Positions 39,475-43,944 of a stretch of 63,356 bases of DNA are shown here, one piece after another. Positions within the stretch are counted from its first letter, which is position 1; every line of letters begins with the position of its first letter. The translations under genes and the position numbers were made by a program. This DNA comes from Chloroflexota bacterium (GTDB taxonomy: Bacteria; Chloroflexota; Limnocylindria; Limnocylindrales; CSP1-4): the NCBI GenBank assembly GCA_021802585.1, contig JAJZRQ010000007.1:1-63356 (forward strand), given 5' to 3'. The notes below the pieces were generated by a model. That model searched no databases, was not told where the DNA came from, and saw only the letters and a program-made list of their open reading frames with translations.

Positions 39475-39684
39475 ATGATGTCCAGGAACTCCCCGGCGCG
39501 GCGGCTCTTCGCGCCCCTCGCGGTGGCCGCGCGCTCCGCCGACGCCCGCCGGCTGCGCCGCCGCCACCACGCCGACGCGCGGCTCTACTGCGGCACGAAC
39601 GGCTGTCCCACCACCCTCCGGCTCGACGCCCGCACCGGCGTCGCCACCTGCCCGATCTGCGGGTTCCGCCGCCGGCTCTCCTGA
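39475..39684 (+). CDS. Small zinc-ribbon protein
   Basis: 69 residues. A basic N-terminal half (ADARRLRRRHHADARLYCG) precedes a four-Cys ribbon: C-G-T-N-G-C spaced from C-P-I-C-G, as in rubredoxin-like or RNA-polymerase-ribbon small proteins. The start is one of two adjacent ATG codons at 39475/39478, with AGGAAAGG about 15 bases upstream. Nucleic-acid binding is plausible from charge and metal site but not shown. Confidence 0.55.
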   Translation: MMSRNSPARRLFAPLAVAARSADARRLRRRHHADARLYCGTNGCPTTLRLDARTGVATCPICGFRRRLS

Positions 39685-39882
39685 CCCGGCGCCCGCGCAG
39701 GGAACCCGGCGTCGCCGCCGGGCGTGACACCGCCGCGCCGCGGCCGCCACGGCGCCCGGTGGATGGACCGTGGATAACCCGGCGCCGAACGGCGAATCTC
39801 GTGGACGGCGCCCCTTGCCCTCGGGCACCCGAACGGCGATCATCCCCTCAGCCCGAAGGGGCCGTGATGAACGGACCGTGGT

Positions 39883-40134
39883 GCCGCCGCAAGGCGGCCG
39901 GGTTCCACCGCAAGGGGAGCCGGGCCCTCCGTCAGGGGGGCCGCCCTTCCGCAAGGGAGGCGTCGCGATCCGCCGGTCGCACCGGGGCCGAAAGGCGCCG
40001 GACCCGCTCGCGAGAGCGGGAGGTGTTCCGCAAGGAGCGCCACAGCTGCCCGCAAGGGTGGCGAGTCCCTCGCAAGGGGGGCGCAGCGATCGGATCGGCG
40101 GTCCCTTCGGGCGCTTTCGTGCCCTGCGCCAGGG
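39883..40134 (+). repeat. Cluster of short hairpins, most with GCAA/GNRA tetraloops
   Basis: Within the 533-base gene-free stretch 39685-40217 there are about eight small stem-loops. They are GCCGCC-GCAA-GGCGGC at 39883-39898, GUCA-loop stem 39923-39942, GCAA 39945-39960, CCCGCTC-GCGA-GAGCGGG at 40003-40020, GCAA 40023-40040, GCAA 40045-40062, GCAA 40067-40080 and CCCTG-CGC-CAGGG at 40122-40134. The loop is conserved while the stems differ, which points to selection for structure or to a small REP-like element family. Open frames on both strands here look like by-products. Confidence 0.6.
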
Positions 40135-40217
40135 GGCTCGCGCCGTCCCGGTTGTAGACTCGGCGGCGACGCCCTCGCGCCGCGCCCGGCGCGCCCGTTC
40201 CCGCCGTCGAGGAGCCC

Positions 40218-41063
40218 GTGTCCGACGCGCCCCCGCCCGCCGAGACCGCGATCCGCCTCGCCGGCCTGCGCTTCGCCTTCCCCGTCGACGGACGGAGGGT
40301 CGAGGTGCTCGGCGGCGTCGACCTCGCCGTCGAGCGCCGCTCGGTCGTCGCGCTCGTCGGGCCGAACGGATGCGGCAAGAGCACGCTCCTCCGCGTCGTC
40401 GCCGGGCTGCTCCGCGCCGCCGGCACCGTGGAGGTCGAGGGCCGCCGGGTCGCCGGCCCCGACCCGCGGGTCGGGCTCGTCTTCCAGGAGCCGCGGCTCC
40501 TCCCGTGGCGGACCGCCCTCGCCAACGTCGCGTTCCCGCTCGAGGTCGCCGGGCGGGGCCGCACCGAGCGGGAGGACCGGGCGCGCGAGCTCCTCGGGCT
40601 CGTCGGCCTCCGCGAGTGGGCCGGGGCGCGGCCGGCCGAGCTGTCGGGCGGGATGCGCCAGCGCCTCGCGATCGCGCGGGCCCTCGCCCTCGAGCCGTCG
40701 GTGCTCCTCCTCGACGAGCCGTTCAGCGCCCTCGACGCGCTCACGCGGGAGCGCTTCAACGTCGAGATCCTCCGCCTCTGGGAACGGATCGGCAGCACGA
40801 TCGTCCTCGTCACCCACAGCATCCCCGAGGCGATCTTCCTCGCCGACCGGGTGATCGTCCTGTCGCCGCGGCCGGCGACCGTGGCCGCCGACGTCCTCGT
40901 CGACCTGCCGCGGCCCCGTCGCCTCGCCGACCTCGACGCGGCCGTCGTGACGCGGACGGCGGCCGCGATCCGGGCCCACCTCGCGGGCGCGACCGACGAC
41001 GCCTATGCGGTCGCCGCCGGTGAGGTCGGGCGTCACGAGGCGCTCGAGGAGGCGCCGCGGTGA
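40218..41063 (+). CDS. ABC transporter ATP-binding protein (nitrate/sulfonate/thiamine-precursor type)
   Basis: A 281-residue ATPase with Walker A GPNGCGKST, Q-loop LVFQEPRLLPWR, signature LSGGMRQR, Walker B VLLLDEPFSALDALT and switch His VTHSIPEAI. The LPWR Q-loop is typical of SsuB/TauB/ThiZ-like ATPases. GTG start with GAGGAG upstream. Its stop overlaps the permease start. It powers the riboflavin-type importer completed by 41060 and 42136. Confidence 0.92.
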   Translation: MSDAPPPAETAIRLAGLRFAFPVDGRRVEVLGGVDLAVERRSVVALVGPNGCGKSTLLRVVAGLLRAAGTVEVEGRRVAGPDPRVGLVFQEPRLLPWRTALANVAFPLEVAGRGRTEREDRARELLGLVGLREWAGARPAELSGGMRQRLAIARALALEPSVLLLDEPFSALDALTRERFNVEILRLWERIGSTIVLVTHSIPEAIFLADRVIVLSPRPATVAADVLVDLPRPRRLADLDAAVVTRTAAAIRAHLAGATDDAYAVAAGEVGRHEALEEAPR

Positions 41064-41815
41064 CCGTGCTCCGGGGGCGGGTCCTGCCCCCGCTCATCGC
41101 GTTCGTCGGCTTCCTCGCGACGTGGCAGGCGATCGTCTGGATCGGCGGCTACCCGACGTTCATCCTGCCCGGCCCGCTCGTGGTCGCCGAGCGCTTCGTC
41201 CAGGCGTGGGCCGACGGGACGTTCTGGCCGCACCTCACGACGACGCTCGCCGAGATCGCCGTGGGGTTCACGGCGGGAGCGGCGGCGGCCCTCCCGACGG
41301 GGTATGTCCTCGCCCGCTCGCGGCTGGCGGACCGGGTCGTCTCCCCGTACCTCGTGGCCGCCCAGGCGGTGCCGATCCTCGCCCTCGCCCCGCTCATCGC
41401 CCTCTGGTTCGGGACCGGCCTCCTCGCCCGGGCGATCATCGTCGCCCTCGTCGTCTTCTTTCCGGTCGCGATCAGCGCGATGGTCGCCGTCCGCGGGATC
41501 GACCGCCGCCTCCTCGAGATGGCGCGGAGCTACCGGGTGACCCGCCGCCAGCGGATCTCCATGGTCGAGATCCCGGCGGCCCTTCCCGGGATCATCGGTG
41601 GCCTCCGGATCGGCATCACCCTCGCGGTCGTCGGGGCGATCGTCGCCGAGTGGACGGGGGGCGAGCACGGGCTCGGCGTCCTCATCAACCTGGCCCGGGG
41701 CAGCCTCTTCGACATCCCGCTCCTGTTCGCGACGCTCGTCCTCATCGCGATCGTCGGGATCGTCCTCTACGGGAGCGTCCTCCTCGTCGAGCGCTGGGTC
41801 GTCGCCCGCTCCTGA
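41060..41815 (+). CDS. ribX: ABC transporter permease, riboflavin-transporter type
   Basis: A 251-residue permease of the SsuC/TauC/ThiX family: PPLIAFVGFLATWQAIVWIG, PTFILPGPLVVAERF, LAEIAVGFTAGAAAALPTGY, AAQAVPILALAPLIALWFG and an EAA-like LLEMARSYRVTRRQRISMVEIPAALPGI. Six or so helices. GTG start overlapping the ATPase stop. The RibX assignment rests on the FMN riboswitch placed between this gene and its binding protein; by sequence alone it could serve another planar substrate. Confidence 0.85.
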   Translation: MTVLRGRVLPPLIAFVGFLATWQAIVWIGGYPTFILPGPLVVAERFVQAWADGTFWPHLTTTLAEIAVGFTAGAAAALPTGYVLARSRLADRVVSPYLVAAQAVPILALAPLIALWFGTGLLARAIIVALVVFFPVAISAMVAVRGIDRRLLEMARSYRVTRRQRISMVEIPAALPGIIGGLRIGITLAVVGAIVAEWTGGEHGLGVLINLARGSLFDIPLLFATLVLIAIVGIVLYGSVLLVERWVVARS

Positions 41816-41899
41816 TCCCCCTCCCCGCGGGCGCCACGCCGCGCAGGCACGCGCGACACCCCGCGGCGCGCCTCGCGGGCGTCACCGGGGACCCGGTGC

Positions 41900-41905
41900 T
41901 ACGAT
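41900..41905 (+). promoter_or_regulatory. -10 element immediately upstream of the FMN riboswitch
   Basis: TACGAT lies just before the first P1 bases of the riboswitch (41907). It is the same hexamer found at the leaderless starts. It implies that ribY has its own promoter and that the aptamer begins at the 5' end of that RNA. Confidence 0.55.
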
Positions 41906-41906
41906 C

Positions 41907-42070
41907 GCGGCGCCTTCGGGGCAGGGTGCAATCCCCGACCGGTGGTAGCGCCCCCAGGGGCGAGCCCACGAGCGCACGTCGCCCGCGCGACGGCGCAGAC
42001 CCGAGCGCGATCGCCCGCGATCGCGACAGCGGGGCCGACGGTCACAGTCCGGATGGAAGAAGGCCGCCGC
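41907..42070 (+). promoter_or_regulatory. FMN riboswitch (RFN element)
   Basis: The FMN aptamer is nearly canonical. The 5' P1 strand GCGGCGCCTTC runs into CGGGGCAGGGTGCAATCCCC and GACCGGTGGT. Then come GAGCCCACGAGCG, a variable stem, GGGGCCGACGGTCACAGTC, and CGGATGGAAGAAGG leading into the 3' P1 strand GCCGC. FMN binding normally shuts off flavin synthesis or import genes. The expression platform is probably translational: a 6-bp stem TGTCGC/GCGACA (42097-42122) precedes the GGGAGG and GTG of ribY, and there is no T-run. It sits between permease and binding-protein genes rather than before the operon. Confidence 0.93.
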
Positions 42071-42135
42071 GCGTCCCCGGACGTGCGAGCGTGTCGTGTC
42101 GCCCCGGAGCCGAGCTGCGACAACGGGAGGCACGC

Positions 42136-43251
42136 GTGACCACTTCGACGACCCCCTGGCCCGCCGCGCGGCGGCGCCCCCGCCACGGCCGGCTGGGCCT
42201 GCTCCTCGGCGCGATCGCAATCCTCGGCGCCGCGTGCGGCGGGGGCGCGTCCCCGACGCCGGTTCCGACCGCATCACCCGGCGGCACGCCGGCCTCGCCG
42301 ACTCCGTCCGCCTCGCCCGCCCCCACTCCCGCGGCCGTCCGGCTCACGATCGGGCTCGGCTACATCCCAAGCGTCCAGTTCGCGCCGTTCTACCTCGCCG
42401 ACCAGGCCGGCTACTACCGCGACGCCGGCCTCGAGGTGAGCTTCGAGAACAAGATCGACCCCGAGCTCGTCACGCTCGTCGGGCAGGGCGCGATCGACGT
42501 CGGGATGGCCGACGGGACGAGCGTCATCCCGGCGGTGAGCCAGGGGATCCCCGTCCGCTACGTGTTCAGCGTCTACGCGACGTTCCCGAGCATCGTCTTC
42601 GCCAAGGCCTCGTCGGGGATCTCCGGGCCCGCCGACCTGCGGGGGAAGAAGATCGGGATCCCGGGCAAGTACGGGTCGTCCTGGATCCAGCTCCAGGCGC
42701 TCCTCGCCGGGGTCGGGATGACGACGAACGACGTCGACGTCGTGACGTTCCCGGACTACGGCCAGCTCGCCGCGCTCGAGAAGGGCGTCGTGGACGCCGC
42801 GACGGGCTTCGTGAACAACGAGCCGGTCCAGCTGGAGCTCGCGGGGACGCCCGTCGTCGTCCTCGCCCTCCCGGCCGACGCCCAGCTCCCCGGGAACGGC
42901 CTCATCGTCGGGCAGGCCGCCCTCGACGGCCCGAAGGCCGACGCGATCCGCTCCTTCGTCGCGGCGACGCGCCGGGCGATGGAGGAGATCACCGCCGACC
43001 CGCAGAAGGGCCTCGACGCGGCGATCGCCCGGATCCCCGAGCTGGCGGGCGACCGCCCGATGCAGCTCGCGGTGCTCCAGGCCACGATCGCGACGTGGCA
43101 GAGCGCGTACACGCGAGCCCACGGGACGGGCGCCGTCGACCCGGCCGAGTGGGAGCGCTCGATCGCGTTCATGAGCGGACTCCCCGACTCGCCCGTGGCG
43201 AAGCCCGTCAGTGCCGCCGACTGCATCGACGCGACGTTCGCGGCCCCGTAG
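42136..43251 (+). CDS. ribY: Riboflavin-type ABC transporter substrate-binding lipoprotein (NMT1/THI5-like)
   Basis: 371 residues. It has lipobox AIAILGAACGG, then a Pro/Ser/Thr linker, and an NMT1/THI5-like fold: IGLGYIPSVQFAPFYLADQA, GYYRDAGLEVSFENK, GAIDVGMADGTSVIPAVSQG, DLRGKKIGIPGKYGSSWIQL, TGFVNNEPVQLEL. The family binds thiamine precursors, sulfonates or riboflavin. The upstream FMN riboswitch selects riboflavin (or a flavin), as reported for RibXY systems in Chloroflexus relatives. GTG start with GGGAGG. Confidence 0.88.
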   Translation: MTTSTTPWPAARRRPRHGRLGLLLGAIAILGAACGGGASPTPVPTASPGGTPASPTPSASPAPTPAAVRLTIGLGYIPSVQFAPFYLADQAGYYRDAGLEVSFENKIDPELVTLVGQGAIDVGMADGTSVIPAVSQGIPVRYVFSVYATFPSIVFAKASSGISGPADLRGKKIGIPGKYGSSWIQLQALLAGVGMTTNDVDVVTFPDYGQLAALEKGVVDAATGFVNNEPVQLELAGTPVVVLALPADAQLPGNGLIVGQAALDGPKADAIRSFVAATRRAMEEITADPQKGLDAAIARIPELAGDRPMQLAVLQATIATWQSAYTRAHGTGAVDPAEWERSIAFMSGLPDSPVAKPVSAADCIDATFAAP

Positions 43252-43380
43252 GACGCCGGGTCCGAGCGGCCCGACGGGCGGTTGGCGCTCCGCGAGCTGC
43301 CAGCGGGAGGGCGCCCGGGAATCGCGAGGCCGACGCGGGCGCCCGGGGGCGTCCGCGCCGGCCGTGGGAGCGGGGCGCGG

Positions 43381-43944
43381 CTAGGCGGACGCGGCGCCGA
43401 CCGGCTCCGCGGCGGCGACGGGAGCGACCTCGTCGGCCGCCACCTCGAGCTCGATCGCGACGTCGTCGGAGACGAGCCACCCGCCCGCCTCGAGCCCGAC
43501 GTTCCACGTCAGGCCCCAGTCGGAGCGCCGGATCTTCGTCGTGGCCTCGAAGCCGGCGTGGCGGCGCCCGTCCATCCCCTTGACGATCCCGAGGGCCTCG
43601 GTGTCGAGGACGACCGGGCGGGTCACGCCGCGGACCGTGAGGTCACCGGTGATCGCCCAGCGGTCGCCGCGGCGCTCGATCGAGGTGCTCCGGAAGGCGA
43701 GCGTCGGGTACGTCTCGGCGTCGAGGAAGTCGGCCGAGCGGAGGTGGTTGTCGCGCGGCTCCATCCCCGTCGCGACGGTCGCGGCGGGGATCGTCACCTC
43801 GACCGAGGACCGCGCCGGGTCGGCCTCGTCGTAGGCGATCGTGCCGCCGACGCTGGTGAAGATGCCGCGCACCTTCGTGATCATCATGTGCTTGGCGGTG
43901 AAGCTCACGACCGTGTGGGCCGGATCGAGCTGCCATGTGCTCAT
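43381..43944 (-). CDS. YceI family protein
   Basis: A 187-residue lipocalin-like isoprenoid-binding protein: TWQLDPAHTVVSFTAKHMMI, TKVRGIFTSVGGTI, LRSADFLDAETYPTLAFRST, GDLTVRGVTRPVVLD and WGLTWNVGLEAGG. It lacks a signal peptide, so it is cytoplasmic, unlike E. coli YceI. It is transcribed divergently from a MarR regulator across overlapping dyads and is probably repressed by it. Confidence 0.93.
   Translation of the reverse strand: MSTWQLDPAHTVVSFTAKHMMITKVRGIFTSVGGTIAYDEADPARSSVEVTIPAATVATGMEPRDNHLRSADFLDAETYPTLAFRSTSIERRGDRWAITGDLTVRGVTRPVVLDTEALGIVKGMDGRRHAGFEATTKIRRSDWGLTWNVGLEAGGWLVSDDVAIELEVAADEVAPVAAAEPVGAASA

Follow-up and report, generated by a model that had tools for sequence, protein, structure and literature searches.

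FMN riboswitches (RFN elements, RF00050) stand before riboflavin synthesis and transport genes. One of the transport systems found in this way is RibXY, whose prediction rested on FMN riboswitches of Chloroflexi (PMC3766115). It comprises a permease (COG0600-like) and an NMT1-type binding protein (COG0715-like), joined in some species by an ATPase named ribZ (PMC3766115; PMC4418817). C. aurantiacus RibXY complements a riboflavin auxotroph of E. coli, binding of flavins is reported for RibY, and the criterion for recognizing RibXY was an identity of 38% or more to C. aurantiacus RibY across 80% of its length (PMC4418817). In the published ribXY operons, the riboswitch precedes the operon. In some Deinococci, by contrast, ribY is monocistronic and has its own FMN riboswitch, and the permease belongs to another transcription unit (PMC4418817). 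Thus, FMN control of the binding protein alone is already known. The same protein family also serves ThiXYZ/THI5-like transport of thiamine precursors.

The locus described here lies in a 63,356-nucleotide stretch of DNA from a Chloroflexota bacterium (GCA_021802585.1, contig JAJZRQ010000007.1; the window). It contains the following elements of an importer of the RibXY type:

40218..41063 (+): ATPase gene (the component named ribZ in some Chloroflexi), 281 aa (PF00005, 3.1e-31)
41060..41815 (+): ribX-type permease gene, 251 aa (PF00528, 4.1e-24)
41897..41905 (+): putative extended -10 promoter TGC-TACGAT (TGCTACGAT) of the riboswitch-ribY transcript, from sequence and conservation
41912..42064 (+): FMN riboswitch aptamer (RF00050; 58.0 bits, E 1.9e-11)
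42136..43251 (+): ribY, NMT1/THI5-type substrate-binding lipoprotein, 371 aa (PF09084, 3.7e-40, 138.6 bits)

The ATPase gene overlaps the start of the permease gene at its end. As in the Chloroflexi systems, a permease and an NMT1-type binding protein occur together (PF00528 and PF09084) with an ATPase, the operon carries an FMN riboswitch, and relatives within the Chloroflexota share the system. However, the riboswitch follows the ATPase and permease genes and precedes ribY only. The likeness to the Deinococci is that the binding protein alone is placed under FMN control, but here the three genes are still adjacent. From thiamine-precursor transporters, the locus differs by its FMN element and by the lack of a TPP riboswitch. 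Compared with the general run of FMN riboswitches, the element is unusual in lying inside an operon, equipped with a promoter of its own, and in governing the gene of one subunit. What is new is that a promoter-riboswitch module lies within an operon that is otherwise intact, and that this state is fixed in a genus whose relatives carry the riboswitch at the operon head. It is probable that the FMN riboswitch and its extended -10 act as one module within this RibXY-type operon and control RibY alone, at the level of translation. Such a locus would provide a clean natural case of a multi-subunit ABC importer regulated via its binding protein only. Closely related genera regulate the whole operon, so that the effect of riboswitch placement is directly comparable.

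An Infernal scan of 8 kb with all Rfam families, including the FMN model search suggested in an initial annotation of this DNA, returned an RF00050 match at 41912-42064(+), between the permease and NMT1-family binding-protein genes, where that annotation had placed the aptamer. The match spans model positions 5-134 of 138. All modelled pairs and consensus helices are kept, with zero non-standard pairs flagged, and the earlier description of the aptamer as near-canonical is fair for an element that scores below the gathering level. The Rfam gathering score is 66.2 bits, a curation threshold and not a structural feature, and because the window aptamer falls under it, a default Rfam scan of the window lists nothing. 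At the equivalent site in genus mates, FMN elements score 55-69 bits; that of G030 (69.1 bits) is above the cut-off, and those of G031 and G032 are below it. Judged from its sequence, the window element is a genuine FMN riboswitch.

About 60 fetched loci were compared for gene order. The FMN element heads the operon, before the ATPase gene, in 33 other loci, versus five in which it precedes ribY, four of them from one genus. In this genus, all four readable species (that of the window, G030, G031, and G032) have the order ATPase-permease-[FMN]-ribY, with the element at homologous positions directly before ribY. The initial annotation had called the placement uncommon, and these counts bear it out. 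In G034, which belongs to another genus, FMN-ribY stands by itself, separated by unrelated genes from the ATPase and permease genes several kilobases upstream; the module can therefore serve ribY alone. The element is widespread at the operon head, and its internal position is therefore most likely the derived one. A tree of the three proteins gives the genus clade 100% support and does not resolve the deep branches, so one relocation and two relocations are indistinguishable. Some genera have genomes with an orthologous ATPase-permease-ribY operon in which no FMN riboswitch was found, even under lax filters (G004, G005, G027, G057, G058, G085-G089, G091, G094, G099-G101, G103, and G104).

A whole-genome search found two FMN elements. 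The second (G000:C98:15033-15201, 80.6 bits) is followed by ribD, a fused ribE-ribBA (riboflavin synthase/DHBP synthase/GTP cyclohydrolase II), and ribH. Thus, the organism makes riboflavin and presumably imports it as well. The same search found no FMN element upstream of the ATPase gene, where another copy controlling the whole operon had been named as the observation that would speak against a switch on ribY only. Control of ribY alone, as first proposed from the sequence, is supported by the position of the element, by this genome-wide absence, by the gene order in three other species, and by G034. The ATPase and permease genes would then lie outside flavin control. Descent of the internal element from the copy before ribD was also considered; the aptamer tree does not group the two, although that tree carries no support values.

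The riboswitch was also said to have its own TACGAT promoter just upstream. This TACGAT (41900-41905) lies inside the extended -10, and the assignment holds in that form, with a counterpart in nearly the whole subtype of FMN elements to which the window copy belongs. In 35 of 37 elements of this CAGGG subtype (CA-type), TGNTANNNT starts 18-22 nt before TTCGGGG of the aptamer core; in 500 shuffles, the count at fixed distance had a mean of 0.08 and a maximum of 2. The elements with the extended -10 include ones at operon heads, before ribD, and inside the operon. Promoter and riboswitch form one module because the extended -10 is kept at a fixed distance in 35 of these 37 elements. Among genus mates, the spacer between the permease gene and the promoter has diverged, and the promoter and aptamer are retained. 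The pair behaves as one portable module. A -35 hexamer was also sought for the riboswitch promoter; no full sigma-70 match was present, and the extended -10 reading was adopted instead.

Upstream of the ATPase gene, at the place where relatives have their FMN riboswitch, lies a second candidate RNA element:

39815..39843 (+): promoter-like TTGCCC-N17-GATCAT just before the structured RNA, putative (TTGC and GATCAT invariant in A1)
39849..40114 (+): candidate new structured RNA, about 266 nt (fold z, covariance model, compensatory pairs)
40155..40160 (+): candidate -10 TAGACT for the ATPase-permease genes (GTAGACTC invariant in genus mates)

The window RNA is predicted to fold into a 15-bp closing stem and two multi-branch domains of four and five tetraloop hairpins, nearly all of the nine with GNRA loops. 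As RNA, 39848-40157 is far more stable than its shuffles (z -5.8). The element occurs in five genomes of the genus, always directly upstream of the ATPase gene, and the other four copies (L081:5167-5437(-), L082:5207-5478(-), L083:2740-3009(+), and L157:2060-2328(+)), which bring the length range to about 266-272 nt, fold alike independently. A covariance model made from these four, with the window left out, retrieves the window copy at 110.9 bits. In the model-fitted alignment of five, 98.3% of cells are paired, and slid versions reach at most 50%; pairs with both sides changed number 18 in the alignment versus 4.2 in shuffles. Identity among the four closer genomes is 89-93% for the RNA, 82-92% for the ATPase gene, and 53-56% for DNA farther upstream (83% in the closest pair). 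The possibility that the hairpin array is a coding sequence, a CRISPR, or a repeat array is rejected by the closing stem and the compensatory changes.

None of 4227 Rfam models matches 39849-40114 at gathering, and up to an E value of 1, Rfam gives only the FMN element and an unrelated weak match inside the ATPase gene. No convincing copy was found in other genera, either within the class or in a 301-genome sample of the phylum, and no relevant account of such an RNA came up in a literature search. Apparently, the region encodes a new RNA without an Rfam match.

This RNA may place the ATPase-permease half of the importer under control of its own, so that two transporter halves would answer to two RNA regulators. 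In its favor, each of the five genomes with the RNA has it immediately before the ATPase gene, it adjoins the relatives' FMN riboswitch site, and it is strongly conserved. However, the -10-like TAGACT between the RNA and the gene is conserved in a spacer that has otherwise diverged (about 30% identity to the window around GTAGACTC), which points to a separate start for the ATPase gene and to the RNA as a possibly independent transcript. The RNA is, moreover, equally linked to a small gene for a zinc-ribbon-like protein. Regulation of the ATPase-permease half by the RNA is put forward as doubtful. A wider formulation can be offered as a tentative possibility: the importer is split between two RNA regulators, with the FMN module moved from the operon head to ribY alone and a new class of multi-branched RNA, either a cis-regulator or a free non-coding RNA, upstream of the ATPase-permease genes in one genus. 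The neighboring structured RNA is an unclassified RNA open to tests of transcription and function.

The zinc-ribbon-like gene (39478-39684 (+), 69 aa, no Pfam match) accompanies the structured RNA in genus mates; the rib loci fetched from other genera lack it. Just upstream of the promoter-like sequence of the RNA, at about 39770-39810 of the window, there are several GTGGATAA/GTGGAC repeats that resemble DnaA boxes. They are partly conserved in genus mates, with a matching stretch in L081, L082, and L157.

Returning to the FMN module before ribY, the region between the aptamer and the start codon carries features that bear on how the switch would act:

42072..42090 (+): predicted hairpin between P1 and the Shine-Dalgarno (SD) region (GCGCGUC-CCCG-GACGUGC region); genus mates have different hairpins
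42096..42133 (+): predicted SD-sequestering hairpin, GUGUC.CCC (42096-42104) with GGG.A.GGCAC (42125-42133) (ViennaRNA, prediction only)
42101..42106 (+): GCCCCG, putative partner of the SD region or alternatively of the aptamer 5' strand CUUCGGGGC (motif count and duplex test)
42125..42130 (+): Shine-Dalgarno sequence GGGAGG of ribY, assigned from sequence, 5 nt before GTG 42136

Of 50 FMN elements, 36 have a GCCCCG no more than 100 nt past the aptamer, against 8.4 on average and 20 at most in shuffles. These 36 are almost all of the CAGGG subtype, and the motif usually stands shortly before the Shine-Dalgarno site. In ViennaRNA folds of the sequence downstream of the aptamer, an SD-masking hairpin is predicted for the window and, in analogous form, for G034. 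No intrinsic terminator (stem plus T-run) was found in 39600-43400, including between the aptamer and ribY. From GCCCCG, the SD hairpin, and this lack of a terminator, translational OFF control of ribY would be the best reading. The antisequestor pairing of GCCCCG with CUUCGGGGC is supported for the subtype, at family level: in a duplex test, the mean z was -1.07 for CA-type elements versus +0.23 for TT-type elements, but the window taken by itself pairs no better than GC-rich shuffles do (z +0.5). The predicted folds mask the SD both with and without a free P1 3' strand, so they do not demonstrate the switching step.

The proposed sequence of events is as follows. The promoter-riboswitch module would have been placed, or fixed, inside the operon directly before ribY. 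Transcription would start about 7 nt after TGCTACGAT and give a short leader of aptamer, hairpin, and ribosome-binding site. With little FMN present, the CUUCGGGGC part of the aptamer 5' strand would pair with GCCCCG of the platform, leaving the SD open for RibY to be made. When FMN is plentiful, the aptamer would close, the GCCCCG region would pair over GGGAGG, and RibY translation would stop. The ATPase and permease genes would start at their own upstream promoter and escape FMN control, and any read-through transcript from that promoter would still keep ribY behind the switch. Uptake would thus be throttled through the binding protein alone, and the ribD operon is served by a separate copy of the switch.

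Transcription-terminating FMN riboswitches are well known, and the switch could act on ribY alone by termination instead, either through Rho or at a hairpin that lacks a U-run. In the window, as in genus mates, P1 is followed by a strong hairpin. However, the absence of an intrinsic terminator, the short spacing between aptamer and SD, and the conserved GCCCCG before the SD argue for control of translation, and termination is regarded as rather unlikely.

Less of a case can be made for the internal element being a relic or minor modulator in a single ATPase-permease-ribY unit read from the upstream promoter, with a small flavin effect on uptake. The genes are codirectional, the permease-ribY gap is only about 320 bp with no terminator in it, and the aptamer score is under the Rfam cut-off. 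Yet every aptamer pair is kept, and four species have retained the element, its promoter, and its position despite the diverged spacer. This makes a relic improbable, and a functional module acting on RibY translation is the preferred reading.

For the substrate, membership in the NMT1 family alone does not give the answer, because the solved structures closest to the window RibY are THI5 and an HMP-precursor binding protein. The proposal that this NMT1-like system takes up riboflavin gains support from the FMN link of the same operon across many genera and from the published RibXY data (PMC4418817), and riboflavin is probably the cargo. Another cargo, such as a thiamine precursor as in NMT1/ThiY relatives, might be argued from those structures and from published family homologues that carry TPP or other riboswitches (PMC4418817), but it is highly unlikely given the FMN-linked operons in many genera of the family, the lack of a TPP riboswitch match in the Rfam scan of the window, and riboflavin transport by C. 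aurantiacus RibXY (PMC4418817). The other NMT1-type binding protein of the genome was considered as a possible partner of the same ATPase and permease. It has ATPase and permease genes of its own, so sharing of the transporter core does not explain a switch on ribY only.

A second subtype of FMN element, marked by TTCGGGGTTGGG or TTCGGGGTCGGG, is found at operon heads (L084, L089, L091, L092, L094, L095, L098, L100, L107, L130, L132, and L136). These elements lack the extended -10 immediately ahead of the aptamer, most of them also lack GCCCCG in the platform, and their expression platform, as read from the motifs, differs from that of the CAGGG subtype.
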